Below, one piece after another: positions 11,579 to 35,896 of a DNA stretch of 41,051 nucleotides. The stretch is from Armatimonadia bacterium (GTDB taxonomy: Bacteria; Armatimonadota; Zipacnadia; Zipacnadales; JABUFB01). Position numbers and translations under genes: made by a program. Where the stretch lies: contig JBDKVB010000164.1 of the NCBI GenBank assembly GCA_039679385.1, positions 1 through 41,051 of the forward strand. Reading direction: 5' to 3'. Below the pieces are notes generated by a model. The model was not told the DNA's origin. It made no database searches and saw only the letters and a program-made list of their open reading frames with translations. Position 1 is the stretch's first letter. The number at the start of each line of letters is the position of its first letter.

Positions 11579-14500
11579 ATGGCCTTCCTCCGCCCCATGC
11601 TCGCATCCCTTTGGGTAGCCCTCTGGGTGCTCAGTGGTTTCCCCGCTGCACAGGCTCAGCCTGCGGACGATATCAAGCCCGTCGCGGCCTGGACCTTCAA
11701 CCAACCCACACTCGGCCTTGCGCGGGACGTTGCTTCGCAGACTCACCACGCACATCTTCTATCGACGCCACGGTATGAGCCTTCGCCGGGCGGCAAGGCC
11801 CTGGTGTTCGCGGGTCCTGCCTCCCGGGTGGCAGTGGCCGACCATCCGACTCTCGTCATGACCGACAGCGTCACCGTGGACGTCTGGGTCAAGATCGATG
11901 ACCTCAACCTGCCGGAGCCGCAGACCCTGGTGGACAAGGGTGGAGAGCGTTACCGTCTGCAGGTCGAGCCCGGCGGCGGCGTCCTCTTCGGACTCAAGAA
12001 TGATACGGGACGTTTCGACCTGACCGGCGGCCGCATCGAGGCCGGGAAGTGGGTTCGCCTCACCGGTGTCTTTCAGCGACCGGCTGCCCGCCTCTACATC
12101 GATGGGGTGCTGGTGAAGCAGGGGACCTGGGATCAGCAGATCGGCCCCGGCGCTGACCTCAACCTCGGCTCGAAGGGCGGCGTGACCTACTTCACCCACG
12201 GCCAGATTGATGAGGTGCGCCTCTACCGCGAAGCCCGGGAGCCTCGGGCCGACGACAAGCCGGTCACGGGCACCGGCGGTGCACAGGCAGGTGAGGCCAG
12301 GATGACGGTGACCCAGGACCAGAAGGGCCTTCTGAGCATCGACACCGGGGCAGCGACCTTCACCGTGACGGCAGAGGGCATCGTATCGGGCATCTTCATC
12401 GGCGGCAAACGCGTAGTGGAGGGCAACACCGAGCCGCTGCTGGCGGCTCAACTGCTGGAGACGAAGGGGTGGTCGGGCTGGAGCGATCTGGCCCCCGGCA
12501 AGACCATCGAGGGCATCTACCGACCGGGCCAGTTGACCCGCAAGGAGCAGGAGGGACGCCTGGAGCTGACCGCGGACGGTCGACTGGACTTCGGCGACGG
12601 CGACGCGATCCTCACCCGGATGGTGCTGAGCTTCCAGGCCGGGAGTCCCTTCCTGTCGGCGACGGTGAGCCTCGAACCTCAGGGGGCCTTCCGGGATCGA
12701 TTCCTGCGCTCGGTCGCGGTGCAGATGCCGCTGGCGCTGGACAAGCGCAAGCGGATTGTCCAGGGCGGCGACCGCGGAGTGCGCTGGAACACTCGGCACT
12801 GGTACCAGTTCATCGTCGACCCCACGGGCAAGCTGATGGAGGAGCCCGACCACAACCTCTGGCGCAACTTCGTCATCGATCAGGTCACTGACCATGACTA
12901 CCACCTCTGGCGCTCCGAGAGCGACTTCACCTCGCCCCTGTCGATGCAGAGGGGGCTTGCTGCGCCGGGGTGGATCGCCGCCTATGACCAGCGTGCCGGA
13001 CTCCTGGTGGGCTACCGTGACTTCGCCTTCAGGGCACCAAAGACGCTGTGGGTGGAAGCCGACGGTCCCGGCAAGGCCACGGTGTTCCTATGGAGTCCGA
13101 CTCGTCCGGCCTTGTCGCCTGCCTCGCCCGAGGCGGCTGCTGTGTTCGGCAAGCCCCACATCATCGACTTCGAGCCCTTCGGCGACGACTTTCGCTTCAG
13201 CCAGCCCGACCTGCTCCTGCGCGAGCAATGGGGAAGGGAGGGCCTCGCGAGTGATGAGCCACCGCGAAACGAGATCCCGGCTGACGGAGTGCCGCAGTGG
13301 TCCGAGCCTGCGGCAGATGACCGGGCGCCTCTGGTGTCCGGCGGAGTGCCCTTCCCGCGAGGCGTGTTGACCGATCCGGGCAACGTACGGCTCATGAAGG
13401 GTGAGGCCCTTGTACCGCTTCAGACCAGGGCGCTGGCCTACTGGCCCGACAAGTCGATCAAGTGGCTCCTGCTCACCTTCCCGCCGGACGGTGGGCAAGT
13501 CTCGGACTCCTCGCCCGGCGACAAGTCGCTGAGCTTCGAGCTGACGCGGCGCTCCGGACCGGCGGATTCCTACCGGCTCGAGTACGGGGGAGAGGCGAGA
13601 CCGGGTCGGGCTGAGCGGACACTCACAGCCGAGAAGTCGGGCGGCCTTGTGCGCCTCGACACCGGTCCACTCTCGGTCGAGCTCAGCACCGGCGAGGAGT
13701 GGCTCCGGAGCGTGAAGCTCGCCGGTCGTGAGATGCTGGCCGCAGGTGCCAAAAGCTACGTGGACTTCCTGCGTCCCGATAAGCCTGTGTCTTGCGGCAG
13801 GACGCACACCACCGGCCAGGTTGATCCCGGCACCTTCCTGCCGGAGAGCCTTGAACTGGAGGAAGCTGGTCCGCTGCGCGCCGTGGTGAGACTCGAGGGC
13901 ATGACGAACTCCGTAGAGCCGCAGCGGCTGATCCTCCGACTGGAAGCCTACGCCGGGCGCAGTTGTCTGCGAGTGTTCCAGACGGTCGAGTTCCTGCACA
14001 AGGACCCCCGGGTCGCCTTCGTCCGCCGCATGGGAATCGACGTGCCCCTCGTAGGATCTGCCGAGGCGACCGTCTTTGCCGGCGGTCAGGAGGGACCCGT
14101 GGAGCTCGGTCGCGGGACTCCTGCAGGCCTGCGTCAGCACAGCCACCTGGGCTATCGCGCCTGGCGGCAAGACACCGGGCAGCGCTTCACCCAGACCGTG
14201 GAAAGCAAGGCTCGCAGTCGTGGCTGGGTCGATGTGTCGGGGCCTGAGGGCGGGCTGGCCGTCTGCCTCCGCGAGATGTGGCAGCAGTTCCCCAATGAGA
14301 TCTCGGCCAACCTCCCGGCGGGCACCGTGACCCTGGGCTTCTGGCCCGAGAGTATTGCGCCGATGGACGTGCGGCGCTACTCGAACTACCCGCACCGGTC
14401 GCAGGGCGAGTCCGCCTCATCCCCGAGTTCCTGGGTGACCGACAACTGGTACCCCCAGGACTGCTTTGTGGGCGTCTCGAAGACGCACGAGGCGCTGCTG

Positions 14501-15907
14501 TACTTCCATGGCCCCGCTGAGAGTCCAACACAGGTCGGTGCTGTCATGGCCGACTTCCAGCGTCCGCCTCTCGTTTACGCGGGCAGGAAGTGGTACCACG
14601 ACACCGGCGTCGTCCAGCCCGAGTTCGCGATGGCCGAAGAGCCCTCACTCGCGCGTTGTGATGCCAACCTGTATCACTTCGCCAAGTTTTGGCTCCAGCA
14701 CCAGAAGCTCTGGGGCTGGTACGGACTGTGGGACTATGGCGACGTGGGCCACTACTTCAAGGGCGGCTATGGGAGCCTGTTCCCGCCCGACGTCCTACGC
14801 ACCCTTCTGGCTGGCGGAGAGGCAGCCAAGAGCATCGACCTGACTCGTGCGCGGTTCCTCGATTACGCTCCGAACCAGGACTGGGCCTTCGATAACGGTC
14901 GCTGGGGCTGGAGCAACACCGAGGGCCTGACGAACCTGTTCCTGCAGACCGAGTACCTGCGCACCGGCGATCGCGATATCTTCTTCTTCCTCGAGGCCAT
15001 GGCCCGGCACTTCCGGGACGTCGACATGCGCCACGACGGCAAATGGTTCGGCTATGGCACCCGCCACGGGGTGCAGCACTGGAGCGACGGCAACCACGAG
15101 GAGCGCCAGACGACCCACTCCGAGTTCCGCTACCACAGCTACCTCACCGGCGACCTGCGCAGCCGCGACTTCGCCCGCCAGCTTTACGAGCGCGTCTACA
15201 GCCGCCGGGATGTCACCATACACGCCGCCCACTCGGGGCGCATCCAGGGCCTCCTGACGCAGTGGGAGATGACGGGAAGCGACGAGGTGGCCGATATCCT
15301 CGCTCGCTACATGCCCACCTTCCACGTGCCGCAGGGGCTTGTTGAGTCTCCTCGCGTCAAGTTCCCCGAGGTCCTGCGTCTTGCTGCCGACGCCAACATC
15401 AATGAGGGCAACATGTTCTTCTGGACCTTCGGCGGCGGCCACGGGATGATCGAATACTACGAGCTGACCAAGAACGAGGACGTGCGGCAAGCGCTGATCA
15501 AGACCGCTGATGATGCTCTCGCAAGTGGCCGTATCGGGCTTCGTCTCAAGGCGGTGGCCTTCGCGGCCAGACACGCAGACAACCCCGAGCCATACCTGAA
15601 GGCAATCCGCGAGTGGGCTGCAGGCGATGGCCGTCGCTACCTGCTGCAGATCGTTCCGCACAACCCGGAGTTCTACGCCGGTCCACAGGGGCTGCTGCGG
15701 GGCTCCACGGCGGGTGCGCTGTTCACGATGAACGACCTGCCCTACGTGATCGGCCTGCTGAGCGAGGACCCGCCGATGGATGACGAGCTGCGGCGGATCG
15801 ACGCAAGTGGCGGACCCTTCTACCGCGAGCCTGTGCTCAGTTGGCAGTCGGAGTACGACCTGCCGGAGTTCGCCGAGTACCTGCGCATCAAGCACCCCCA
15901 ACCCTAA
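11579..15907 (+). CDS. Secreted LamG plus PL26/YetA-like (exo-rhamnogalacturonan lyase-type) protein
   Basis: The product has 1442 residues. A signal peptide (about 1-26) precedes a LamG/concanavalin-type domain (about 35-220, including VTVDVWVKI, WVRLTGVF and GQIDEVRLY). Residues 235-580 form an unassigned beta-rich region. From about 585 the sequence resembles PcRGLX/YetA-like lyases: the RIFT barrel opens with GGVPFPRGVLTDPGNVRL, a beta sandwich follows to about 950, and an alpha/alpha toroid runs to about 1430. The toroid has the conserved GTRHGVQHWSDGNHEERQ segment. PcRGLX (PL26) removes rhamnogalacturonan units from chain ends. The family link is from motif memory and is moderately certain; activity is an inference. 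The giant protein at 15929 follows after 21 bases, so the two are co-transcribed. AAGGGGG lies about 10 bases before the ATG. Confidence 0.8.
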   Translation: MAFLRPMLASLWVALWVLSGFPAAQAQPADDIKPVAAWTFNQPTLGLARDVASQTHHAHLLSTPRYEPSPGGKALVFAGPASRVAVADHPTLVMTDSVTVDVWVKIDDLNLPEPQTLVDKGGERYRLQVEPGGGVLFGLKNDTGRFDLTGGRIEAGKWVRLTGVFQRPAARLYIDGVLVKQGTWDQQIGPGADLNLGSKGGVTYFTHGQIDEVRLYREAREPRADDKPVTGTGGAQAGEARMTVTQDQKGLLSIDTGAATFTVTAEGIVSGIFIGGKRVVEGNTEPLLAAQLLETKGWSGWSDLAPGKTIEGIYRPGQLTRKEQEGRLELTADGRLDFGDGDAILTRMVLSFQAGSPFLSATVSLEPQGAFRDRFLRSVAVQMPLALDKRKRIVQGGDRGVRWNTRHWYQFIVDPTGKLMEEPDHNLWRNFVIDQVTDHDYHLWRSESDFTSPLSMQRGLAAPGWIAAYDQRAGLLVGYRDFAFRAPKTLWVEADGPGKATVFLWSPTRPALSPASPEAAAVFGKPHIIDFEPFGDDFRFSQPDLLLREQWGREGLASDEPPRNEIPADGVPQWSEPAADDRAPLVSGGVPFPRGVLTDPGNVRLMKGEALVPLQTRALAYWPDKSIKWLLLTFPPDGGQVSDSSPGDKSLSFELTRRSGPADSYRLEYGGEARPGRAERTLTAEKSGGLVRLDTGPLSVELSTGEEWLRSVKLAGREMLAAGAKSYVDFLRPDKPVSCGRTHTTGQVDPGTFLPESLELEEAGPLRAVVRLEGMTNSVEPQRLILRLEAYAGRSCLRVFQTVEFLHKDPRVAFVRRMGIDVPLVGSAEATVFAGGQEGPVELGRGTPAGLRQHSHLGYRAWRQDTGQRFTQTVESKARSRGWVDVSGPEGGLAVCLREMWQQFPNEISANLPAGTVTLGFWPESIAPMDVRRYSNYPHRSQGESASSPSSWVTDNWYPQDCFVGVSKTHEALLYFHGPAESPTQVGAVMADFQRPPLVYAGRKWYHDTGVVQPEFAMAEEPSLARCDANLYHFAKFWLQHQKLWGWYGLWDYGDVGHYFKGGYGSLFPPDVLRTLLAGGEAAKSIDLTRARFLDYAPNQDWAFDNGRWGWSNTEGLTNLFLQTEYLRTGDRDIFFFLEAMARHFRDVDMRHDGKWFGYGTRHGVQHWSDGNHEERQTTHSEFRYHSYLTGDLRSRDFARQLYERVYSRRDVTIHAAHSGRIQGLLTQWEMTGSDEVADILARYMPTFHVPQGLVESPRVKFPEVLRLAADANINEGNMFFWTFGGGHGMIEYYELTKNEDVRQALIKTADDALASGRIGLRLKAVAFAARHADNPEPYLKAIREWAAGDGRRYLLQIVPHNPEFYAGPQGLLRGSTAGALFTMNDLPYVIGLLSEDPPMDDELRRIDASGGPFYREPVLSWQSEYDLPEFAEYLRIKHPQP

Positions 15908-15928
15908 GGGTGCATGGAGGCGATGACG

Positions 15929-18900
15929 ATGAGCGGCCCGGTCCTATCTGTGGCGACAGTCGCGCTGGTTCTGTGCTCCCTGCCTGTTGCGGCGCAGGAG
16001 CCCTGGGTTTGTCCGGAGTGCCGCTACCGCACTCAGATCACCGCGCCCACGGTGTCGCGGGAGGCAGAGTCCAGGCAGGTCGAATGCGCCCTTGACCTGC
16101 CGCAACTGTTGCAGCAGGCCGGGGTTGAGGGCAAGTTCGACCCGGCGTCCCTCCGCCTGGTCGAGGGTGGCAAGCAGGTGCCCTTCGTCTACCGCACCGA
16201 GTACAACCCTCGCCTGCGTCACGACGAAGCGTACCTGGCCTGGACGTCCCGCTCACGTCCTGGGGAGACCTCGACCTGCGATGTCTACTGGGACACGGAG
16301 GAGGCGGGCGTGAAGGCTCTTACCTTCGCCCCGGCCGCCTTGCCCGTCGAGAACCTGCTGCGGAACCCCGGCTTCGAGCAAGCCGAGGGAAACCGGCCCG
16401 TCGGCTGGGAGGTCAGCTCACCGGCCCTGGTCAGCCTGGGCTCCTGGGCGAAGGGCACCGGGCAGCGCTCGCTCCGGATCGCAGTGGACGACACCACGCC
16501 CGCCGAGGCCGACCGGACCCTATACCTCTCGCAGACGGTCGACGTGGCACGCTTCGCGGGTCAGGAGTTTCTCTTCGAGTGTGACCTCCTGGCAGAGCGG
16601 GCGGCCTACGGATGCCCGGTCAGTGTGCGGATCGAGCAGTACCGCGCCGACGGCTCGCGACTCGGGTGGTTCGCGATTCAGCCCAGGTGGCTCACCGTCG
16701 AGCTTGCGCAGGGCCAACTGGTGCAGCTCTCTGAGCGCGGCACCCTCAGCCCGCAGACAGCGACGATCAAGGTGAGCATCGCTCTGCGTTGCTACGTGAA
16801 CGATGCCGACACCGGCCGTCGCGTTGAGGGACCGGAGTCACACTTCACGGTCCGGCTCGATCGCCTCGTTCTGCGTCCTGGTCAGCGCTGGCCCTGGCCT
16901 GGCCTGAGTCACGCCGGGTTCGTTGCGGGAGCACTTCCTTCCGCTCCGGTCAACCACGCCTTCGAGTTTCGCGGGAAGCGTCGGCTGGCTTTCAACGGGG
17001 GTTCTGAGGGCACTCGCACGAACAACCTCGAGGGTGACGCCTCCACCGTCCACTGGGGACTGGAACGCGGCACCCTTGAGCTCTGGTGTCGGCCGAACTG
17101 GGACGCTGAGGATGGCGTCGAGCGAACGCTCTTCTATGGACTCGCCTACAACCATCGCCTGCAGTCACAACTGCGCAAGCGTGGCAGTGACGGCCGGAAT
17201 GCCCTGGAGTTTGCGATCGTCGATTCGGGCGGGACCCGTCGCAGTGTGAGCGCACAGGCCGAATTCCGGGCAGGAGTCTGGAGCCACCTCGCAGCGACCT
17301 GGGACTTCCCGCGGGCACAACTCGAGCTCTTCGTCAACGGACGGCTGATCGCCTCAACGGGACCGGGCGACACGCCCTGGCCTTGCAGCCGCGAGCATAC
17401 CGTGGAGGGCATGGCTCCCGGAATCGGCATCTCAGAGACCGACACGCGCAGTCTGCCGATGCAGGCCTTCCTCGGCGGCGACCGCAACTGGGACGAGCCT
17501 GGATCGGCACAGGCTGCCATCGATGAGTTCCGCATCTCCGATAGCGTGCGCTACCAGGGAGACTTCACACCGCCACGGGAGGAGTTCGCGCTCGATGGAG
17601 CTACCCGTGCGCTGTTCCACTTCGAGGACGATGGCCAGGGCGTGCATGCTGCCGACGATGGCATCGTGGGTGGCTACCTGGGTTGCGATGTGGACCCCCA
17701 ACTTGAGCAGGCACCGCTTGAGGTGCGCAAGGGCGACACGATCACCGAGCAGAAGGTGACGGTCAGGCCGCATGCCTCCGAGGCGCTGTTCCAGTCCAAC
17801 CGTGCCGAGAACCGCATGAAGGTCACTCGGCCGGTTGAGCAACTCCCCGATCCGCGCTTCATCGACTTCCGCACCCGCAGCGTCGAGCGTGTGGTGAAAG
17901 GCAACGGCGAGGAGTTCCAGCTGAGCGTCGGCGGCGACTACCAGCCCTTGATGCGTGCGATCACCTTTGAGCACGCCGCGGCGGAACAGTCCAGGGCAAC
18001 ACTCCTGCCTCGCTGGCGGGCCAACGACAACGTGGTCCCCTTCAGCTTCCAGAGCCTTGCCCAGACGCTTGCGCCGGGGGCCAAGGACGATGCGGAGAAG
18101 GCCTTCGAGGTCTTCCGCTACGCGCTGCAGAGCACCAACTACTACGATGCCGGCTACTGCGAGACGCTCCCCACACGGCATCGCGAGCGGGTGTCCTACA
18201 CCCTCCTCAAGCACCTGAACATCTATCCCTTCGACCAGTGTGGGCCGCTCAACTTCACGATGCGCAAGCTCCTTCTGGCCGCGGGCATCTCCTCCAACGA
18301 CGCGCCCGGCACCCATCACCAGTTCGAGCAGGCCTTCTACGACGGCAGCCTGCGCCTGCTTGACCTTTCGCCACGCATGTACTGGCTGAACTGGGACAAC
18401 AGGGCCCGACTGAGCCTGAGGGGACTCGAGGAGAACCCGTACCTTAAGGTCAGGCAGGGGGGAGATGCGAACGCGTGGCTCCCGGGACGGCGCAGTCAGG
18501 CCTCCTTCGGCACCGCAGAACGGCCCCACAACATGGACTTCAACCTGCGACCGGGGGAGCGTGCCAGTGTGTCTTGGCACAACGAAGGCCGCTGGTTCGA
18601 GTTGACCGAGAAGCGTGAGCCGATCCGCCTGGAGAAGATCCCGCCCTACTTCGGCAACGGGGCACTCCTCTGCGATCTGACTGCCGACGGTGGCGCCTGC
18701 GAGCGCACCAACCTCTCCGCTGCAACGACCCCGGAAGGACCTGCCCTTTCTCTTGCCCGAACCGACGCGCCCGGCGTCCTCCTCTACAGGGCGCAGTGCC
18801 CCTACATCCTCTCAGACGGCAAGCTCACGGGCGAATACTCGGCGGCGACGGCAGGGGACATCACGGTCTCCCTCTCTTTCGATGAGGGCAGGTCCTATCA

Positions 18901-20008
18901 GCAGCTATGGTCGAACCCCGGCGCAGCGGGCGCTCTGTCAGTGGACCTGCGCGATCAGATCATGGCGCGGTATGTCTACTGGCTGAAGCTCGAGCTGCGC
19001 GCGGGAAGCAAGGCCCGCGTCCTGAGCCCGCAGGTACGCAGCGTGTTCGTGGTGTCGCCGCTATCGCTTCCCGGGAAGCTGCAACTGGGCGACAACCGTA
19101 TCCGCTTCGTGGCCGGGCCGGTGACCAGCCCCATCAAGACCTCGTGCCAATGGACCGAGCGCTACCTGACAGACCTGGGGATCGACCTCAAGGCTTTGAG
19201 CTACTACCACAACAGCGGCGAGGCGCTGCAGAATCTGTTCATCGTGCGGCCCGGCGAGACGTGCCCGGTCAAGGTGTCGCTGCTGGGACGTGAGGCGAAG
19301 GGGCAACTGTTTGTGGAGCCGCACTCGCGACTGCTTCAGGCCGGTGCGCCGCAGTCGCTATCGCCGGGCAAGCAGCAGGCCGAGTTCACGGTAAGCCTGC
19401 CGGACGCTCCCGAGGGCAGCATCGAGGCCTTCGACCTCGTGCTGCGTGAGGGAGACTCCGAGAGGCGAGTGACGGCGCAGGTGCTCGTCGCTCAGTCGGC
19501 CCTCACCTGTGAGGCCGAGGACGCCGCGAAGCTGTCTGGTGGCGCGCTCATCTCACCGCTGGCAGAGCTTGGTGGCGCGAAGGGTGTTCGGTTCGAGAGC
19601 CCGGGCGAGATGGCCTTCGAGGTAGACGCGTCGAAACAGGGGGAGTATGCGCTGTGGCTTCGTGCCCGCTGGGAGCCTGGGAGCAGGACGTCGATGACGC
19701 TGACTCTGGACGGCGGCAAGGCCCGCCAACTGCAGGCCGAGGCGATGATCGGGTTCAGCGACTGGACCTCGGAGTCCCGAGCCCACACCAAGATGTTCGC
19801 CCACTTCGGCGAGCAGTACGGGCAGTGGTCGTGGTACCGTATCGGCGGCGTCAACCTGACGCCGGGCAAGCACACGCTGGCACTCGGAGCGCAGAGTGGG
19901 GCCTTCTTCGACTGCCTGACTCTGCTCCCCGCGACTGACGCCATGGACCGGGCGGCGATGAACCTGTTCCAGAACTGGAACTTCGCGCCCTGGTGTGAGC
20001 CGCTCTAG
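15929..20008 (+). CDS. Giant secreted protein with LamG, transglutaminase-like and CBM6/35-like regions
   Basis: The 1359-residue product starts with a signal peptide (MSGPVLSVATVALVLCSLPVAAQ). Of three in-frame ATGs the one at 15929 is preferred because GGAGG lies 8 bases upstream; 15914 is the longest form. The order of regions is: a CPEC-containing N-terminus with a beta-sandwich; a carbohydrate-binding-like region near 140-310; a LamG domain near 340-540; a region near 700-830 whose Cys-His-Asp pattern (C771 in DQCGPLNFTMRKLLLAAGI, H796/H797, D812 in LLDLSP) recalls transglutaminase-like proteases; beta-sandwich regions; and a C-terminal CBM6/35-like domain (about 1190-1350, opening CEAEDAAKLSGG). 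I do not recognise the whole architecture. The lyase gene lies just upstream, so a cell-surface glycan or glycoprotein target is likely. It ends 2 bases before the convergent gene at 20011. Confidence 0.75.
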   Translation: MSGPVLSVATVALVLCSLPVAAQEPWVCPECRYRTQITAPTVSREAESRQVECALDLPQLLQQAGVEGKFDPASLRLVEGGKQVPFVYRTEYNPRLRHDEAYLAWTSRSRPGETSTCDVYWDTEEAGVKALTFAPAALPVENLLRNPGFEQAEGNRPVGWEVSSPALVSLGSWAKGTGQRSLRIAVDDTTPAEADRTLYLSQTVDVARFAGQEFLFECDLLAERAAYGCPVSVRIEQYRADGSRLGWFAIQPRWLTVELAQGQLVQLSERGTLSPQTATIKVSIALRCYVNDADTGRRVEGPESHFTVRLDRLVLRPGQRWPWPGLSHAGFVAGALPSAPVNHAFEFRGKRRLAFNGGSEGTRTNNLEGDASTVHWGLERGTLELWCRPNWDAEDGVERTLFYGLAYNHRLQSQLRKRGSDGRNALEFAIVDSGGTRRSVSAQAEFRAGVWSHLAATWDFPRAQLELFVNGRLIASTGPGDTPWPCSREHTVEGMAPGIGISETDTRSLPMQAFLGGDRNWDEPGSAQAAIDEFRISDSVRYQGDFTPPREEFALDGATRALFHFEDDGQGVHAADDGIVGGYLGCDVDPQLEQAPLEVRKGDTITEQKVTVRPHASEALFQSNRAENRMKVTRPVEQLPDPRFIDFRTRSVERVVKGNGEEFQLSVGGDYQPLMRAITFEHAAAEQSRATLLPRWRANDNVVPFSFQSLAQTLAPGAKDDAEKAFEVFRYALQSTNYYDAGYCETLPTRHRERVSYTLLKHLNIYPFDQCGPLNFTMRKLLLAAGISSNDAPGTHHQFEQAFYDGSLRLLDLSPRMYWLNWDNRARLSLRGLEENPYLKVRQGGDANAWLPGRRSQASFGTAERPHNMDFNLRPGERASVSWHNEGRWFELTEKREPIRLEKIPPYFGNGALLCDLTADGGACERTNLSAATTPEGPALSLARTDAPGVLLYRAQCPYILSDGKLTGEYSAATAGDITVSLSFDEGRSYQQLWSNPGAAGALSVDLRDQIMARYVYWLKLELRAGSKARVLSPQVRSVFVVSPLSLPGKLQLGDNRIRFVAGPVTSPIKTSCQWTERYLTDLGIDLKALSYYHNSGEALQNLFIVRPGETCPVKVSLLGREAKGQLFVEPHSRLLQAGAPQSLSPGKQQAEFTVSLPDAPEGSIEAFDLVLREGDSERRVTAQVLVAQSALTCEAEDAAKLSGGALISPLAELGGAKGVRFESPGEMAFEVDASKQGEYALWLRARWEPGSRTSMTLTLDGGKARQLQAEAMIGFSDWTSESRAHTKMFAHFGEQYGQWSWYRIGGVNLTPGKHTLALGAQSGAFFDCLTLLPATDAMDRAAMNLFQNWNFAPWCEPL

Positions 20009-20435: not shown

Positions 20436-20521
20436 GGGGCCGAAGTGCCCTGCGTCGTGCCGAGAGGGTCGTCGGGAGCCAGTATGCCCTTGTGTCGATG
20501 TGGATCAGGAGGGAACGGACG

Positions 20522-21067
20522 GTGTGTGACCTTCGTAGCCAGGCTCAGCCCTACCTCGACTTCGTCTGCCGCGAGTACGGCCACAAGGACAGGGCACATG
20601 ACTTCCACCACATAGAGCGCATCGTGAGTCGGCTCCCCATGCTGTCCGAAGGCCTATCCCCGCAGTGGGATCGCCTCTACTTCCTGGCCTGCTTCCACGG
20701 GTTGCATGCACGGATCCAGAACGAGGAAGCCTTCCGTGAGCGCGTCGAGGCCTTTCTGGGTAGCTTGGGGTGGCAGGACACTGCTGATCTCTTGGCGAGC
20801 CTTGCGCGCCACCTGAGAGCTCCTGTGACCGTCGAAGAGCAGATCGTGCATGACGCGAACTACCTGCAGTTGCTCGGGGCCTTTGGTGTTGCCAAGGCCT
20901 TCCTCACCGGCGGGGCGCTGGGGCAGTCCTTCGAGGAGACAGCGGACATCTTCGAGCACCAATATCTCGATCGGGTGGAGTTTCTGACGCCTGTCGGCAG
21001 GAGGATGGCCGCCGACAGCCGGGCGTACACCAAGGACTTCCTGCGCCGTCTGCGCGAGGAATGGTAG
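20522..21067 (+). CDS. HD-domain phosphohydrolase homologue with altered HD dyad
   Basis: The 181-residue product resembles single-domain HD proteins of the YedJ type. It has the first His motif (AHDFHHIERI, H29/H30) and the later Asp motif (IVHDANYLQLLGAFGVAKAF, D111). The central metal-binding His-Asp dyad reads His59-Gly60 (ACFHGLHA), so the Asp is lost. A perfect AGGAGG (20507-20512) stands 9 bases before the GTG at 20522, which decides this start over the in-frame GTG at 20492. The enzyme family hydrolyses phosphate esters of nucleotides; here activity is doubtful. It is divergent from the small membrane protein and convergent with the Fpg-like gene. Confidence 0.75.
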   Translation: MCDLRSQAQPYLDFVCREYGHKDRAHDFHHIERIVSRLPMLSEGLSPQWDRLYFLACFHGLHARIQNEEAFRERVEAFLGSLGWQDTADLLASLARHLRAPVTVEEQIVHDANYLQLLGAFGVAKAFLTGGALGQSFEETADIFEHQYLDRVEFLTPVGRRMAADSRAYTKDFLRRLREEW

Positions 21068-21098: not shown

Positions 21099-21974
21099 TT
21101 ACCTCTCTGTCTTCTGCGTCCGTCGGTCTTGCTTCGGAGGCGCGGGCTGACACTCCGGGCATGTGTAGACTGCGCCGCCCAGGAAGCTCTCCTTGAGGAT
21201 CGCCGCCTTCCCGCAGGCGGGGCAAGGCTGACCGGCCGCTGCGGCGCTCAGCAGACGCGCATACCCACCGGTCTCGTCGAAGAGGTCATGCTCATCGGTC
21301 CGGCCTTTGAGCCCGATCGCGCGCTGGATCACTTGCACGACGGCCTTGTAGAGCGCAGTGCGCTGCGCCTTGGTCATATCTACCGCTCGGTAGCGTGGGT
21401 GAAGTCGTGCGGCCAGGAGGATGTCCTGCAGGTAGCCGTTCCCGATGCCCCAGGCGCCGGGCTCCGAGATCAGGAAGAACTTGATGGCCCGTTTGTCATC
21501 GGGCGTCAGATTCGCAAACAGGCTCTCGAAGTACTCTCGCGTGAATCCCTCATCGGTCGGCTCCAGTGACCGCTTCGCGTACCACGGGTACACCTCAAGC
21601 CCTTCCGGTGTGAAGAGCTGGCACGACCCCCAGCCCTGGACCTTGACGCTGAGGAAGGTGCCGTCGCTGAAGCTCAGCAGCAACTGGTGCTTCGCCGGCA
21701 CCGTCTCTGCCGAAGCGTGATATAGGATGCGTTCCCCACCACCGCCGAGAAGCACCACATGACCGCTGCTGACGCGGACCAGAATCAGCGAGCCGCTCGC
21801 CTCGGACCCAAGCACCGACTGGCCCTGGAGGATGCTCGCGTACTCCTCCGGCGGGCGGTTGTAGAAGGCGAACTTGTGCGGCGAGTTGCCCCGCATCGCG
21901 GACCCAATCTTCTTGCCCGCCAGCGTCTCGGTGATCTGTCCGGCAAGGGTCACGGCTTCCGGGTGCTCAATCAT
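21099..21974 (-). CDS. Fpg/Nei-family DNA glycosylase homologue lacking catalytic residues
   Basis: The 291-residue protein aligns by eye over the full Fpg fold. The N-terminus reads MIEHPEAVTLAGQI where active enzymes have M-P-E-L-P-E. The helix-two-turn-helix region is clear (AWGIGNGYLQDILLAARLHP). A C-terminal zinc finger has CPAC and CPEC pairs separated by 17 residues. However, the Schiff-base nucleophile Pro2 is Ile, and the segment matching the catalytic R-R-G-K-Y-L reads ASGSLI, so the Lys is Ser62. This subgroup, with 'MIE(I/H)PEA' N-termini, is often annotated as endonuclease VIII but probably binds rather than cuts. The start at 21974 has GGAGG at a 6-base spacing; it overlaps the upstream gene by 8 bases, which implies translational coupling. 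Confidence 0.85.
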   Translation of the reverse strand: MIEHPEAVTLAGQITETLAGKKIGSAMRGNSPHKFAFYNRPPEEYASILQGQSVLGSEASGSLILVRVSSGHVVLLGGGGERILYHASAETVPAKHQLLLSFSDGTFLSVKVQGWGSCQLFTPEGLEVYPWYAKRSLEPTDEGFTREYFESLFANLTPDDKRAIKFFLISEPGAWGIGNGYLQDILLAARLHPRYRAVDMTKAQRTALYKAVVQVIQRAIGLKGRTDEHDLFDETGGYARLLSAAAAGQPCPACGKAAILKESFLGGAVYTCPECQPAPPKQDRRTQKTER

Positions 21975-23016
21975 GACGTGCCTCCACCAGGGACTGCTCG
22001 ATATGAGAGACTGCCTGCGCATCGGAGTCGCGGATCTCAAGGAGGGTCTGCGCATACCGCTCGCGCACCTCAGGATCGAGGAGCCGTTGCTGAGCCTCCT
22101 GCGAGAAGTCGCTCTTCAGGATGTCCTCGAGCTGGTACCTCAACTCGCAGCTTCGTTCATAGCCTTCGGCGGCCAGAAGCAACTCTGTCCCGCCTCCGGG
22201 CAGCGCTTGGGCCGCATCGCGCAGGAAGGGAGCCGCCGAGGTGTGGTCGTCGAGCATCATGTTGTAGCAGAGCACACAGAGGTAGCGGAACCAGAGACCG
22301 TTGTCCTCCCGCTCCACTTCCTGGGCGAACTCCGGGTTGCGTAGGGTTGACGCCAGGACCTCATAGGCTTTGAGCCCGGCGTGGCGACCACCAATCTCCG
22401 GCGTGCGTACCAACTCCACGGCCAGTTGCAGGGCCTCGGTGTAGACGAGCGGCAAGGGCAGCGCTTCGCACTTCGCACCCAGGGTAAGGTACTCTCTCGT
22501 CTGCCCGTGCCAGTCCTTGATGACGTCATAGCCCCTGAACCTATTGGGCCCGCCGTAGGGACTCGACCCCAGGAGTATGTCGCCGCCGCTCTCATAGCCG
22601 GTGATGAGTACCCAATCGGAGGCGTCCACCACGTGCCCTCTCAGCATCACAGCAAGGCCGCGGCTGATGCTGTCGGTGATGCGCTGAAGGTCCTCGGCCC
22701 GGTTGCCCCTGGGGTGCCAGCGGTACCTGTAGCCGACCGCGTCGAAGGCACGGCGGAACAGGTCGTGCACATCGGCTGAGACGCTCTCGAACCCGTAGAA
22801 GCCAGGGTTCCACAGCTCATGGCCCATGGTGAATCGAAAGGCGACGCCGGTCACGCCCATGATGCTGTGGTACGGCACCTCCTCACCGACACACTCCACC
22901 ATGCGGGTGAGAGCCGAGGCGAACTCGCACATCTCGCCAGTGCTCCAGTCCAGGGGCCTGACGCCCTCCAGGTACGTCCTGTTGCCCTCGGTCTTGAGGC
23001 TGATGGCTCGTGACAC
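21967..23016 (-). CDS. BtrH/C39-like papain-fold protein, cytosolic
   Basis: The 349-residue protein has no signal peptide. Residues 20-190 look like the papain-like domain found in BtrH-type and C39-like proteins. The signs are a candidate nucleophile Cys30 (STGEMCEFASAL), the motif MGVTGVAFRF (residues 53-62), and GYRYRWHP near 95-102. A 'DWVLITGYESGGDILLGSSPY' segment takes the place of the usual 'H-xx-xxGY' catalytic-His strand, with Asp-Trp instead of His, so it may be inactive. Residues 195-349 are helical and unassigned. The start is GTG, with GAGAGGAG at a 9-base spacing. The middle-domain pattern recurs in the secreted protein at 23595-25736 of the same operon. The domain assignment is by eye and tentative. 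Confidence 0.65.
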   Translation of the reverse strand: MSRAISLKTEGNRTYLEGVRPLDWSTGEMCEFASALTRMVECVGEEVPYHSIMGVTGVAFRFTMGHELWNPGFYGFESVSADVHDLFRRAFDAVGYRYRWHPRGNRAEDLQRITDSISRGLAVMLRGHVVDASDWVLITGYESGGDILLGSSPYGGPNRFRGYDVIKDWHGQTREYLTLGAKCEALPLPLVYTEALQLAVELVRTPEIGGRHAGLKAYEVLASTLRNPEFAQEVEREDNGLWFRYLCVLCYNMMLDDHTSAAPFLRDAAQALPGGGTELLLAAEGYERSCELRYQLEDILKSDFSQEAQQRLLDPEVRERYAQTLLEIRDSDAQAVSHIEQSLVEARHD

Positions 23017-23077
23017 CGTGTCCCGCTCCTCTCTTGGTGTTGGGGCCTTCCCTCACAGGTGCCGTTGCCGGTGCTCC

Positions 23078-23536
23078 TCAGTGCTCCTCAGCCCGGTACT
23101 TCTCCAGGGCCTTGCGCACCCCCGTCTGCATCCAGCCGTTCTGGATCCACGGTATCGCCTCGAGCTGGCTGCGAATCGACTTCCCTCCGCTGCCGCAGTG
23201 GGGCTCGAAATCCGCCACCTCGCGGTCAAGCATCTCCGCAGGGACGCCAATCGCCTCGGCACAGGCCATGGCTGCAGCAACCAGGGCCCTCGCGATCTCT
23301 TGCGGTTGTTTCTGGTCGCATCCCAGCAGGGACCGGAGACGTATGATGTCCCGCTGGGCGCCCTCGGGGTAGTTCCAGAACCGGCTCAGGAAGTCGCCGA
23401 CACACACATCCTCCTGGTAGTCGGACCTGGCCTCATACTCGCCTGCATACAGGTCGGGCTGCAACGCCTCCATCGTCTCGCAGGCATCCAAAACGCCGTT
23501 CATCACCGTCCGGAGGAGCTTCCAGTCCGTGCTCAT
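23078..23536 (-). CDS. Hypothetical protein in papain-fold operon
   Basis: The 152-residue product is not recognised. It is soluble, acidic and predicted mainly helical, with three or four helices, two widely spaced Cys near the middle (CVGDF, LLGCDQ) and a Trp-rich C-terminal part (IPWIQNGWMQ). The gene sits 58 bases after the secreted protein gene and 61 bases before the cytosolic papain-fold gene, so it is in the same operon. GAGG lies 4 bases before the ATG. It may be an adaptor or immunity-like partner for its neighbours, but there is no evidence beyond position. Confidence 0.7.
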   Translation of the reverse strand: MSTDWKLLRTVMNGVLDACETMEALQPDLYAGEYEARSDYQEDVCVGDFLSRFWNYPEGAQRDIIRLRSLLGCDQKQPQEIARALVAAAMACAEAIGVPAEMLDREVADFEPHCGSGGKSIRSQLEAIPWIQNGWMQTGVRKALEKYRAEEH

Positions 23537-23594
23537 CTGTCCTCACTTCCTCAAAGGTACGGGGACGCCGCCATCCCGCGGTCGCTACGCCGTC

Positions 23595-25736
23595 TCACCA
23601 CGTAGCCACAGCCTGCCGCAGGGCCTCGATCCCTGCCCGTTCCTCCGCGATGCCCTGGTCCAGGAGCGGCAGCATCACCACGAGGTGCTCCGGGTCTCGC
23701 GCGAACTTGAGGACGTTGGTCTCCATGGGGTCACCGGCATGGGCTGCGACGCGGTAACGCTCATACAGCGCGAAGGCCTTCGCGTAATGCTCGGCGGCCT
23801 CAAGGAGCGGCTGTCGGGCGTCGTCGCCGAGGGTGTCGGCTGCTTGACGAAGCCACTCGGCGCAGCACTTGCGGGCACTGAGGCGTTCGAAGGTCGCCCA
23901 ACAGAACCACTCCGCGCGCTTCTCGAAGCTCTTGCTTGAATCCGCAACGTCTCTGCGGTACGCCTCCAGCGCCGCCAGGCCCTGGGCCACACCCCCATGC
24001 TCATGAGGTGAGGCCTTCTGCAAGGCCCGCTGCAGGGCCTCCCTGTAGAGCTCCTTGTGCGGCCTTGGCTTGCCGGTGCGCTCAAGAACATAGACCCAGG
24101 CCGGCTGCAGGTCGCCGAGCGCAAGCCAGCCACGCCCGACGGGTGCCTCGAACCAAACCTGCCTCACGCCGTCTTTCTCGCGGTAACCAGTGAACAGGCC
24201 GCCGTCCCACTGCTCACTGAGGACAGGAGTGCCCGCGTCCACCTGCGGCTTGACGAAGGCCCAGAGACGATCGGCCTCCTTGACCGGCACACCCTTGTAG
24301 GAGTAACCGAGACGCTGCGTAAGCCAGCGGAAGACCTCGTAGGGGCCATCGGCCTTCGGGTTTCCGCACACACCGAGGAAGGCAGTCGGCAGGCTGTCAT
24401 AGCCGTAGCCGAAGCTGAACGCCCAGCCGGTGCCCGCCGTGAACTCGGCAAAGGTGATCGGTGTTCCGGCGTGGTTGAGAGCTTGAACGTGCGCCAGTGG
24501 CACCCCGGCACCCAGATAGGGTACGCTCTCGTCCGTCAACTCACGGCCTGCGGGCGCCGACAACGCCTCGGGTCGCACCTGTCCCGGAAGCACCTCCGCA
24601 GCCGCCAGCGCCTCTTCCATACTCTCCGCGGCAGCCGCTAGCTCCTTGCGGAGGGGCACCAACACCTGCTCGGCGTGCGCCTTCTGCTTGTCGAGTCTGC
24701 CCACGAGCTGCTCCAGCCTCTCGCCACCCTCACCTGTCAGGGACGGGTGCAGAAGCGTCTGGGTTCGGTCGTAGTGCTTCGCCGTCGCCTCCAGACAGGG
24801 GCGCACAACAGCCGGGAAGCTCAGCGCTCGTTGCCGCAGGTAGGCCGAGACCGCCCGGGCACCGGCATCCATCCGGACAGCGTTGTCACGGGCATCGGTC
24901 CAGCCCTTCTGCGATCGCTGCTCACACTCGGCGCAGAATCCCGGCACCTCGGACATCTGCTTGATCCACAGGTCCATCGCCTTCAGGCCATACACCGCCT
25001 GCCGGGTGCGACCGAAGGGCCTCTCCCCACGTATCCTGGCGACAGCCAGGCGCAGCATCTCCAGGTCGGCATCGAGCGCCGGTGTCGTGGTCCGCGCCGG
25101 TGACAGCGCCCAGGCCCCCGAGACGTAGGACACCGGGTTGTCCAGGTAGCCATTGAGGCAGGCGCCGAGGAGCCTGCCCGTCTCGGGATCGGCCTCGGTG
25201 ATGATCCCGGCCCAGGCCCAGGGGACAAAGCCATGGGGCCCCTTGGTCTCCCACTCGCGCTCGATAAGTATGACGTGGCCCGCACGCATCTCCTTGTGGA
25301 ACACCGCAGCGACTGCTCGGCGATGCGCGAGCAGGGCCTTCGGGTCCGGGCTCTCTGCTTCGGGGAGACGCAGCTTGCGGGCAGTCAGCCCCAGACTCCT
25401 TGCGAGTGGGCGGATCGCAGGGGTACTCAGCCACGAGGCAACATGCCACCAGGACGTGCAGGGCTCGCAGGGGTCAAGACCGGGGCAGAAGGCACTCGCC
25501 GACCGACAGAAGACCGTCTGGTAGTCGCCGTCGCGACCAAGCAGCCTTGCGGCCGCCACGAGCGATAGCGACACGGAGTCTTGCGACATCCCTTCGCCCT
25601 TCAGGCTGAGGGAAGCGTAGTCGGGTACTGCCGATCCTCCATCACGGCAAGTCGAGTCGCCGCGAGCAGTTCCGCATACCAGGGCCAGAATGAGGACAGT
25701 GGCGAGAGCCTCGCACACCGTTACACAGGTTGTCAC
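23595..25736 (-). CDS. Secreted protein with two papain-like (BtrH/C39-type) domains
   Basis: The start is GTG at 25736, with GGAGG at a 6-base spacing, and it opens a signal peptide (about 1-25, ALATVLILALVCGTARG). The product is 713 residues. Region 1 (about 25-260) is rich in Cys at FCPGLDPCEPC and has a Trp-rich 'HGFVPWAWAGIITEADPETG' strand pair as in C39-like folds. Region 2 (about 400-600) contains GTGWAFSFGYG, PTAFLGV and LGYSYKGVP. These line up in order with GVTGVAFRFTMG, PGFYGF and VGYRYRWHP in the cytosolic operon partner. The rest is helical, and the C-terminus (600-713) holds TPR-like helices. Catalytic Cys and His could not be assigned with confidence. Probably an exported or surface-exposed peptidase-like or binding protein. 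Confidence 0.65.
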   Translation of the reverse strand: MTTCVTVCEALATVLILALVCGTARGDSTCRDGGSAVPDYASLSLKGEGMSQDSVSLSLVAAARLLGRDGDYQTVFCRSASAFCPGLDPCEPCTSWWHVASWLSTPAIRPLARSLGLTARKLRLPEAESPDPKALLAHRRAVAAVFHKEMRAGHVILIEREWETKGPHGFVPWAWAGIITEADPETGRLLGACLNGYLDNPVSYVSGAWALSPARTTTPALDADLEMLRLAVARIRGERPFGRTRQAVYGLKAMDLWIKQMSEVPGFCAECEQRSQKGWTDARDNAVRMDAGARAVSAYLRQRALSFPAVVRPCLEATAKHYDRTQTLLHPSLTGEGGERLEQLVGRLDKQKAHAEQVLVPLRKELAAAAESMEEALAAAEVLPGQVRPEALSAPAGRELTDESVPYLGAGVPLAHVQALNHAGTPITFAEFTAGTGWAFSFGYGYDSLPTAFLGVCGNPKADGPYEVFRWLTQRLGYSYKGVPVKEADRLWAFVKPQVDAGTPVLSEQWDGGLFTGYREKDGVRQVWFEAPVGRGWLALGDLQPAWVYVLERTGKPRPHKELYREALQRALQKASPHEHGGVAQGLAALEAYRRDVADSSKSFEKRAEWFCWATFERLSARKCCAEWLRQAADTLGDDARQPLLEAAEHYAKAFALYERYRVAAHAGDPMETNVLKFARDPEHLVVMLPLLDQGIAEERAGIEALRQAVATW

Positions 25737-26106
25737 ATCGCACCTCCCACTTGCGCGACACCGTGTGCCGCTTGCCCCCGCGCCTCCCTTGACGGGCGGC
25801 CAGGCAGTACCCTTCCGCGTCTGGCGTCTGCTTCCTGCCTGAGGAAGGGCCTTGCGGGGGACAGCAGGGGGCAAGGGCGTCGGAAGTGCACAAGGAAGAA
25901 GGAAGTTGAAGGACCTTCTCTCAATGTTACTCTGTATATGTGGTCAACGTAGCCCGGTGGCACTCAGCAGGTGCTGGAGTGGACGTGACCCGCTCTGTGG
26001 GCCTGACTGGGCTCTGGCCTCCGTGCGCGCTCTCGTGTTGAGGGTTCGCCTCTGTGTACATGCCTGCACAACCTCCAGCGCCAGTGCCCCTTCGGGAGTG
26101 AGAGCA
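25737..26106. other. Divergent intergenic region
   Basis: This 370-base gap separates the papain-fold operon (leftward) from the ankyrin lipoprotein gene (rightward) and must hold promoters for both. It contains a locally A+T-richer patch at about 25895-25945 and a 6-bp stem with a 5-base loop at 25831-25847 (CTTCCT/AGGAAG). I could not pick a convincing -35/-10 pair on either strand, and no small gene is evident. Confidence 0.5.
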
Positions 26107-27924
26107 ATGAGTGCCACTCGCCTTTCACTGACCCTTGTGGCCATCTTCGCTATCGCCTGGACTACCGGGTGCTCTCGCGAGGAACAGCCTCCCGGACTCC
26201 AGCCCGAGGTCGCGAGCAACGGCGCCGAATCCTCTGCCGAGACCGGCGCGTCGTCTGGAGGTGCCTTGCCCGAGCAGCTCGCGGTCCAGGCGATCGCCAG
26301 CGGCAACGAAGGCGAGTTGCGCCGTCTCCTCGCTGGCGGGCTGGACGCGAACACTCCTCTTGGGGTGCGGAAGGGGACCCTCCTACATCAGGCGGCGATG
26401 TCGGGCAAGGTTCACCTTGCCGCCGTCCTACTTCGCGCGGGCGCCGACCCGAACGCCAAGAAGACCGATGGTCAGACGCCGCTCCAGGCAGCCGTGTGGG
26501 GTGGTCATCCGGAGCTCGTGAAGCTGCTGTGTGAGAACGGAGCCAGGGCAAAGGAGCGCGGGCAGTCCGGGCAGACGGCTCTGCACACAGTGGCCCTGCG
26601 GGGCAGGCAGTTGTGCGAAGAGGAACCCACGATCGGCAGACTCGCCAAGTCGGAGAGGAGCGCTCAGCACGCGGCTGCTGTGCAGGCCAACCTGAAGTCA
26701 CTGGAGATACTGCTGGCTGCCGGCGCGGACGCCAACGCGGTCGATGCCGAGGGCAATACGCCGCTTGCCCTCGTTGAGCCCAGCAGCCCCTTGATGCGGC
26801 TGGACGCCTACACTCAGACCGTCAAGGCACTGCAGCAGTCGGGTGGCCGCAACTCCAACAAGTACAAGGACCTCAGCCCGACCGAGGCGGCCTGCGTGGC
26901 TGCAGGGACTGGCGACACCGACAAGCTCCGTGCCTTGCTTGCACAGGGCCTCGACCCAGACGCGCAGTTGCGCTCCTACTCTCAATGGGAGACCGTCCAG
27001 AGGAAGATCGATTGGCCCTCCACAGACCCTGTGCCGATGCACCCCCTTGACGCAGACAGGGAGGTCAGCCGGCCCCTGCACTGGGCCTGCGCGGCCGACC
27101 AGATCGGTGCCGTCCGCCTCTTGCTCGAGCATGGTGCGAAGGCGAAGGCCCTCGACACAGATTCCACGGCACCCCTTGGGACCGCTATCGATCACGGCAG
27201 CGTTGAGATGGTGAAGCTACTCCTCGCCCAGGGCGCCGACCCGAACACTTCCCGTACCAGTCGAGGCACTGCGCTGTGCAATGCGGCAATGGTGCGAGGA
27301 GACAAGGGCGTCGAGATGCTACGCGTGCTACTCGCCGCCGGGGCCGATCCAAACAAGCAGACCAGCGCGGGTGTGGCACCGATTCAGTTCGTCGGCGAGG
27401 GTAGATGGGGCCAGCGGAAGGCCGAGTTACTTCTGGACAAGGGGGCGCGACTGACCCTAGAGACCGCAATCGTTCTGGAGCGGACGGACGATGCACTCGA
27501 CCTGGTCGCCAAGGGACAGGGCATCAAGGAGACCGTGACCCAGGCGCCCTACCCTCTGACGATGCGCGATTTGGCGCACCTGCATCACCAGCCCCAGGTG
27601 GCCGAGGCCCTCCAGAAGCGCGGAGTGCGGATGTCCATGATCTACGCCATCATGTTCGCCGGGGACGCGACGGAGGTCGAGAGGCAACTGCGCGCCGGTG
27701 CGGTTGCCCGGGGCTCTGCAGAGATGGCGGACTACCTGCGCGGGGCGATCCTCAAGGGCCACGTGGAGATAGTGCGCGTGCTCCTCGAGTACGGGGCCAA
27801 CGTCAATGAGCCGGACCAGAACGGACGCACGCCGCTGGACTACGCTCGGCTGAGCAACAAGCCTGAGATGGTCGAGCTGCTCCGTAGCCATGGGGCCAAA
27901 GAGGGCAAGGGCCGGCGGCGCTAG
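26107..27924 (+). CDS. Ankyrin-repeat lipoprotein
   Basis: The 605-residue product begins with a lipoprotein signal (MSATRLSLTLVAIFAIAWTTGC; lipobox TTGC, Cys22). The remainder is ankyrin repeats: about nine recognisable units with 'GADPNAKKTDGQTPLQAAV', 'AAGADANAVDAEGNTPLA', 'HGAKAKALDTDSTAPLG', 'QGADPN', 'AAGADPNKQ' and, at the C-terminus, 'YGANVNEPDQNGRTPLDYA'. Spacer stretches (for example about 250-330) interrupt the array. Ankyrin repeats mediate protein-protein contact; the lipid anchor places them on a membrane, periplasmic or surface side. GGGAG lies 8 bases before the ATG at 26107, and this start opens the signal peptide, so the longer frame from 25852 is rejected. It is divergent from the papain-fold operon. 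Partner unknown. Confidence 0.9.
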   Translation: MSATRLSLTLVAIFAIAWTTGCSREEQPPGLQPEVASNGAESSAETGASSGGALPEQLAVQAIASGNEGELRRLLAGGLDANTPLGVRKGTLLHQAAMSGKVHLAAVLLRAGADPNAKKTDGQTPLQAAVWGGHPELVKLLCENGARAKERGQSGQTALHTVALRGRQLCEEEPTIGRLAKSERSAQHAAAVQANLKSLEILLAAGADANAVDAEGNTPLALVEPSSPLMRLDAYTQTVKALQQSGGRNSNKYKDLSPTEAACVAAGTGDTDKLRALLAQGLDPDAQLRSYSQWETVQRKIDWPSTDPVPMHPLDADREVSRPLHWACAADQIGAVRLLLEHGAKAKALDTDSTAPLGTAIDHGSVEMVKLLLAQGADPNTSRTSRGTALCNAAMVRGDKGVEMLRVLLAAGADPNKQTSAGVAPIQFVGEGRWGQRKAELLLDKGARLTLETAIVLERTDDALDLVAKGQGIKETVTQAPYPLTMRDLAHLHHQPQVAEALQKRGVRMSMIYAIMFAGDATEVERQLRAGAVARGSAEMADYLRGAILKGHVEIVRVLLEYGANVNEPDQNGRTPLDYARLSNKPEMVELLRSHGAKEGKGRRR

Positions 27925-35667: not shown

Positions 35668-35896
35668 CAGTTCCTCCTGCAAGGGCGTGTCTGCCCGGAG
35701 GTTCGTCCCTACGGGCGGGATACCTGCCCGACTTGCCGTCACGGCATCCTGCCTCAGATTCTCTGCGTCTTGCCGATAGGCCGGGAATGTCACTGCGGCT
35801 CGAAGGGCGAAATAGCACGGCGTGGCTACCCGGTCAGTGGTACGCCAAGCTCCCAGTATACGCTCTTTGACCAGACCACCTCATCAGGAGCCAACC

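Follow-up and report, generated by a model that had tools for sequence, protein, structure and literature searches.

A clade of probably non-excising Fpg-like proteins and its partial linkage to predicted AziU3-fold proteins in Armatimonadota

The closest described relatives of the proteins treated here are the DNA glycosylases Fpg (MutM) and Nei (TIGR00577, PF01149, PF06831) and the enzymes AziU3, CtaG and CcbD. AziU3 belongs to AziU3/U2, which we take to be the aziridine-forming enzyme of the azinomycin pathway, and shares its fold with CtaG (closthioamide) and CcbD (celesticetin). In the azinomycin pathway the aziridine is formed by sulfate elimination (reviewed in PMC9570651), and CcbD forms amide bonds via a Cys-His-Glu triad (PMC12945683). 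By one description (PMC9266487), an Arg in the zinc finger of Fpg is needed to pinch the DNA and thereby flip the lesion out of the helix. Nine Fpg/Nei clades have been listed (PMC3188539), none of which is described, in the part of that source at hand, with the residue losses reported below. We analyzed a stretch of 41,051 nucleotides of an Armatimonadia bacterium (GenBank assembly GCA_039679385.1, contig JBDKVB010000164.1; hereafter the window), which carries an operon of four genes encoding, in the order of transcription, proteins of 713, 152, 349 and 291 amino acids (aa). The last is an Fpg-like protein that belongs to a widespread old family, apparently uncharacterised, a point missed in the preliminary description of the operon. 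The AziU3/CtaG/CcbD fold is predicted for the 713-aa and 349-aa proteins.

Assignment of the 291-aa protein to the Fpg/Nei fold was based on an H2TH domain above the Pfam cut-off (PF06831, E 5e-12), a full-length match to the Fpg equivalog model TIGR00577 (residues 1-276, 88 bits, E 5.9e-25, short of the curated cut-off of 203 bits), and a search of PDB sequences in which all strong matches were Fpg or Nei glycosylases. Like these enzymes, it retains the H2TH domain, the Cys4 zinc finger, Glu3 and the GxGN motif. Unlike them, it lacks three residues: (i) Pro2 is replaced by Ile2, the N-terminus reading MIEHPEAV as compared with MPELPEVE in Fpg, (ii) the equivalent of Lys57, a Lys in 29/29 canonical rows of the alignment, is Ser62, and (iii) the zinc-finger Arg, present in 26/29 canonical rows, is Gly267. 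The preliminary description had named an Fpg/Nei fold with both catalytic residues gone; the fold and the loss of Pro2 stand, with Lys57 and the zinc-finger Arg lost in addition, and Glu3 proved to be retained. Met is normally not removed before Ile, Phe, Leu or Tyr at position 2, hence the free N-terminal amine would be displaced in proteins that begin in this way. Judging from these replacements, the 291-aa protein and its clade are probably unable to excise bases in the manner of Fpg. Since the parts that hold nucleic acid are kept and those that flip and excise the base are lost, the protein would most simply recognise its target and leave it uncut, and we infer that the 291-aa protein binds nucleic acid without excision.

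A scan of one genome per species, covering 84,980 species, identified 33 relatives of the Fpg-like protein, distributed over Chloroflexi, Armatimonadetes, Poribacteria, Fermentibacterota, KSB1, Aminicenantes, Phycisphaeraceae, Bipolaricaulota, Bacillota, WOR-3 and Trueperaceae. A tree of 68 sequences showed the putatively non-excising proteins, which span about ten phyla, as monophyletic with respect to ordinary Fpgs (support 100/96); they might constitute a tenth Fpg/Nei clade, one that apparently lacks a name so far. Pro, present at position 2 in 29/29 canonical rows, never occurs there in the clade, where the residue is Ile, Phe, Leu, Tyr or Val; Ile, Phe, Leu or Tyr account for nearly all clade rows. 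Glu3 is retained in 35/37 rows, the position of the zinc-finger Arg is Gly in 33/39, and Lys57 is mostly lost, while the GxGN motif and the four Cys are kept. Residues that are new and near-invariant in the clade are His33, Lys34, Trp115, Gln183, Asp184, Arg225 and Glu228. The genome-contig sample was found by the motifs M[IY]E.. or GNGY..D, and residue frequencies within it are therefore biased at position 2 and at positions 180-184; among members found by profile search or via the other motif, the residues at position 2 also include Val, Leu, Phe and Tyr. One row counted as lacking the catalytic residues, L050, proved from the tree to be a canonical Fpg whose start had been misread, and the N-terminus is missing from two rows. 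The matches to Fpg-type profiles imply that automatic annotation would tend to label members of the clade Fpg or endonuclease VIII.

The genome carrying the window also encodes an ordinary Fpg (L175, MPELPEVET), hence its clade member is a paralogue and not the decayed form of an only copy. Four further Fpg-like proteins, L029 (from genome G077), L030 (G045), L224 and L225, retain Pro2; L029 and L030 have a finger motif, GSTxSFIC, without the Arg, adjoin the clade in the tree and are perhaps intermediate. A survey of gene neighbourhoods across the phyla revealed no conserved partner of the clade except for small lineage-level clusters such as those in WOR-3 (L104:2-4167 and L106), where one or two clade genes lie beside genes for an AlkD-type DNA_alkylation protein, a DUF3795 protein and a GNAT. 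The WOR-3 neighbourhood is a hint that the role of the clade still concerns DNA damage.

The relation of the 713-aa and 349-aa proteins to AziU3 was found at the level of structure. Matches to BtrH_N (PF14399), grouped here with CtaG and CcbD, were weak (E 0.04 and 0.006; 14.6 and 17.3 bits, against a Pfam gathering score of 29.7), and searches of PDB sequences with the 349-aa protein and with its family profile returned no real match, so that it is predicted structure that carries the relation. The family profile of the 349-aa protein, whose homologues share 67% identity in G016, 43% in G079 and 39% in G047, matched the 713-aa protein as two successive units (full-sequence E 1.1e-15). Two AlphaFold2 models were built from alignments of four sequences each, the sequences being shared between the two: the 349-aa protein gave a predicted local distance difference test score (pLDDT) of 70.7 and a predicted template modelling score (pTM) of 0.76; for unit 2 of the 713-aa protein the values were 74.8 and 0.78, respectively. 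AziU3 (PDB 7wuw, 8gs1) was the best structural match of both, with Z 18.5 over 283 residues for the 349-aa model (CcbD 16.4, CtaG 15.2) and Z 19.5-19.6 for the second unit (CtaG 16.2, CcbD 15.8). All three structures were matched over their full length, papain-like domain and C-terminal helical domain alike (256-289 residues), and clearly above any other structure; the next matches, such as C39 domains, phytochelatin synthase and staphopain, covered only the papain-like half. The full AziU3/CtaG/CcbD fold is thus predicted for the cytosolic protein and for the second of the two exported copies. Three copies of one papain-like domain had been proposed for the two proteins, and both the profile and the models bear out the shared fold; the papain-like domain is confirmed as well, but a generic papain protease fold is rejected in favor of the full fold.

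The units of the window show only 11-12% identity to AziU3 and, unlike AziU3, include two exported copies in one chain; no AziU2-like partner was recognised, and no azinomycin-like cluster was seen around the operon. Neither the 349-aa protein nor either unit of the 713-aa protein possesses a papain-type Cys-His dyad: the former has Cys30, but Asp134 stands at the His position. In 52 units of the family, with the columns assigned by sequence pattern and not by residue-level superposition, the catalytic-His column contains Asp in 24, Glu in 19 and His in none, and the Cys column has kept its Cys in 15 units, those of the 349-aa subclade among them. With Asp or Glu in place of His in 43/52 units, the Cys-His-Glu triad of CcbD (PMC12945683) is not kept and thiol acyl-transfer chemistry is unlikely; AziU3 itself is an example of other chemistry on this fold. 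The AziU3-fold domains would most likely bind a small molecule.

AziU3-fold proteins occur in 61/291 Armatimonadota genomes (E 1e-8), often in multiple copies and at many places per genome; a tblastn search of plasmids with the 349-aa protein found nothing. The 713-aa protein is probably exported, as suggested by an N-terminal hydrophobic stretch (VTTCVTVCEALATVLILALVCGTARGD) and not by a signal-peptide predictor. Tandem copies with and without such a stretch adjoin in 7/10 tandem clusters, and pairs of this kind are present in the window as well as in G016, G045, G288, G077, G064 and G079. The pairing of an exported with a cytosolic form noted in the preliminary description therefore recurs in other genomes, but since the two forms are about equally common, 7/10 is not above chance. 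An AziU3-fold unit was also found behind an extracytoplasmic function (ECF) sigma factor with regions 2 and 4, in Aminicenantes (L092:18607-20316) and in Armatimonadota (L153:874-2547, L067:7064-8752 and L008); such a fusion is possibly a ligand-controlled sigma factor. Genes near the family encode GNATs, GyrI-like/Cass2 small-molecule-binding proteins, DUF3795 proteins and an OmdA protein. Three AziU3-fold units occur in one chain in L196:6147-9317 (1056 aa) and L181:4513-7797 (1094 aa).

The layout of the operon agrees with the preliminary description: all four open reading frames were found on the minus strand, the intergenic gaps measure 58 and 61 bases, and the 349-aa and 291-aa genes share 8 bases (ATGATTGA), an overlap that suggests translational coupling. 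A purine-rich, Shine-Dalgarno-like stretch can be read 5' of each of the four starts. No sigma-70-like promoter or terminator-like site exceeded the shuffled expectation between positions 20900 and 26100. Compared with their homologues in G016, the 291-aa, 349-aa and 152-aa genes have ratios of non-synonymous to synonymous substitution rates of 0.12, 0.27 and 0.14, respectively, demonstrating that they are protein-coding genes under purifying selection.

The complete four-gene set was found nowhere else among the genomes searched. Within Armatimonadota, a clade gene lies within a few genes of an AziU3-fold gene at 4/11 loci, representing about three independent events. Besides the window (G000), these are (i) G016, from another family of the order, in which the Fpg-like gene, a GNAT gene, the homologue of the 349-aa gene and a gene for a two-unit exported protein stand in a row, in an order that differs from that of the window, (ii) G101, in which the Fpg-like gene is followed by a small RHH-like gene and a Fic gene and then by a 321-aa AziU3-fold unit, and (iii) contig C157 of G022, in which a gap of 24 bases separates the gene for an exported two-unit protein from the Fpg-like gene that follows it, a more degraded copy in which Glu3 and GxGN are missing as well. 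The members of the pair come from different subfamilies at each linkage. Among the 28 loci of the clade outside Armatimonadota, the flanks contained no AziU3 fold except in L092, at a distance of 7.8 kb. The link between the Fpg-like clade and the AziU3 fold is hence real but partial, and confined to Armatimonadota. Co-occurrence in distant genomes had been proposed as a check; the pairing is seen at the four Armatimonadota loci and is absent in other phyla, and the idea of the four genes as a conserved pathway is not supported. Neighbours in G059, G022 C189 and G044 (709, 779 and 813 aa) resemble the partner in size and were rejected, as none matched the AziU3-fold profile. The RHH-like and Fic/Doc genes of G101 (L165:1203-1789) form a toxin-antitoxin-like pair between the Fpg-like and AziU3-fold genes.

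The 152-aa orphan had no Pfam match above the cut-off and no NCBIfam, PADLOC or convincing PDB sequence match; the notion that it is an AziU2-like subunit finds no support at the sequence level. Clear homologues were detected in 2/100 relatives (77%, G016 C40; 60%, G044 C202), both on contigs other than those of the Fpg-like and AziU3-fold genes, and the orphan was never found clustered with these elsewhere. In G016, a 276-aa protein adjoining the orphan homologue (L058:9175-10005) matches the ankyrin-repeat protein next to the operon of the window (E 3.7e-20), perhaps through the ankyrin repeats only.

The four genes and their likely first neighbours are listed in the table below. The genome carrying the window comprises 5.6 Mb in 184 contigs and is about 97% complete. 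Elsewhere in the window, positions 11579-20008 (+) encode two very large consecutive proteins of 1442 aa (PcRGLX-like and LamG domains) and 1364 aa (LamG domain), and positions 34144-35793 (-) encode a 549-aa DUF1846 protein with both domains present.

Table. Genes of the operon and its likely first neighbours in the window.
Feature	Position	Strand	Remarks
713-aa protein, probably exported	23595..25736	(-)	GTG start; two predicted AziU3-fold units in tandem, roughly at residues 30-335 and 395-713; both lack the Cys/His dyad
152-aa orphan	23078..23536	(-)	No known family
349-aa cytosolic protein, single predicted AziU3-fold unit	21967..23016	(-)	GTG start; homologues and model
291-aa Fpg/Nei-fold protein	21099..21974	(-)	PF06831, TIGR00577, alignment, tree
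191-aa gene product, likely first neighbour past the 291-aa gene	20492-21067	opposite to operon	Partial match to a phosphohydrolase model
690-aa ankyrin-repeat protein, likely first neighbour, divergent from operon	25852-27924	(+)	

What might have joined an Fpg-like protein to AziU3-fold proteins can be put forward only tentatively. One possible account is that a non-excising, nucleic-acid-binding Fpg-like protein and ligand-binding AziU3-fold proteins were brought together in Armatimonadota by a shared trigger. The Fpg-like protein would bind damaged or distorted nucleic acid and mark the site for other repair factors, while the two exported domains and the cytosolic one, with an acidic residue replacing the thiol dyad, would bind the same small molecule on either side of the membrane; alternatively, they may alter it chemically without a Cys thioester, as AziU3 does. 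Since the pair was assembled more than once within the phylum, a shared trigger is the simplest reason for it, and the trigger might be a DNA-reactive small molecule that is captured by the AziU3-fold proteins and whose lesions are recognised by the Fpg-like protein. The identity of the ligand, the shared trigger and the handling of a genotoxin are guesses. A dedicated module against such a molecule, in which the dyad-less AziU3-fold proteins, within the cell as well as outside it, bind it or open its reactive group and the Fpg-like clade passes the lesions to other repair pathways, is doubtful. At least as likely as the shared response, and likewise far from certain, is that the genes are mere neighbours: the Fpg-like protein would be a stand-alone housekeeping binder of damage or structure, the AziU3-fold family, expanded in Armatimonadota, would have another job, and the operon would be local and recent with little coupling. 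Several observations favor this and weigh against a shared response. The Fpg-like gene stands alone in most other phyla, including seven further Chloroflexota-group genomes (2/7 with Pro2-containing forms), and 7/11 Armatimonadota loci are unlinked, some of them on short contigs. The AziU3-fold family is missing from 17/28 of the genomes with a clade member outside Armatimonadota and is scattered within Armatimonadota genomes, the partners change subfamily from one linkage to the next, and the orphan, unlinked in relatives, is left unaccounted for. Furthermore, the confidence of the models is moderate (pLDDT 71-75 from four sequences), and CtaG and CcbD, with other chemistry, follow closely behind AziU3 as the best match. 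A purely non-excising role is also weakened by NEIL3, which has Val2: a glycosylase may stay active when only Pro2 is lost. On the other side, the pair in G016 stayed adjacent despite a changed gene order, and the roughly three independent linkages exceed chance: in a rough model with assumed gene numbers that counts G000 and G016 once, at least three linkages in 11 loci would arise with a probability of about 2e-5 to 3e-4. This figure takes in the window, which had given rise to the search; without that event it is about 1e-3 to 5e-3.

A signalling module, with the AziU3-fold domains as ligand sensors and the Fpg-like protein as a DNA-binding output (a transcription or nucleoid factor), is rather unlikely. 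The sigma-factor fusions of the domain, seen in Aminicenantes and in several Armatimonadota, and the adjoining of exported and cytosolic copies in most tandem clusters would be consistent with it, but the latter does not exceed chance, no sigma factor or regulator is present within the operon, and no partner of the clade is conserved that could point to a regulon. That the Fpg-like protein has remained a glycosylase, with another nucleophile, and the operon is a repair operon is very unlikely. Glu3, GxGN and the zinc finger are retained; however, the displaced N-terminal amine in nearly all rows is accompanied by the loss of Lys57 and of the DNA-pinching Arg. Action on RNA instead of DNA, comparable to that of the related NFACT-N domain of RqcH, is hardly probable. 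The Fpg fold does have RNA-acting relatives in the NFACT family, and H2TH also occurs in ribosomal protein S13, but the match to the Fpg model is full length, the strong PDB sequence matches are all Fpg/Nei, and the WOR-3 neighbourhood concerns DNA alkylation repair. A known anti-phage defence system was rejected, the sole PADLOC match being a 12.6-bit zinc finger.

The components, namely the Fpg-like clade and the AziU3-fold family, are more interesting than their combination. A repair fold that binds lesions after the loss of catalytic residues has an analogy, in an unrelated fold, in the alkyltransferase-like (ATL) proteins with their dead AGT domain. The persistence, in about ten phyla, of an Fpg-like clade in which most excision residues are lost raises the question of what a non-cutting repair fold does. 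Likewise, the predicted fold, known from antibiotic-making enzymes, appears to have spread in a form that lacks the thiol dyad, to proteins that are exported, cytosolic or fused to sigma factors. The repeated meeting of the two in Armatimonadota provides a concrete protein pair for interaction testing.

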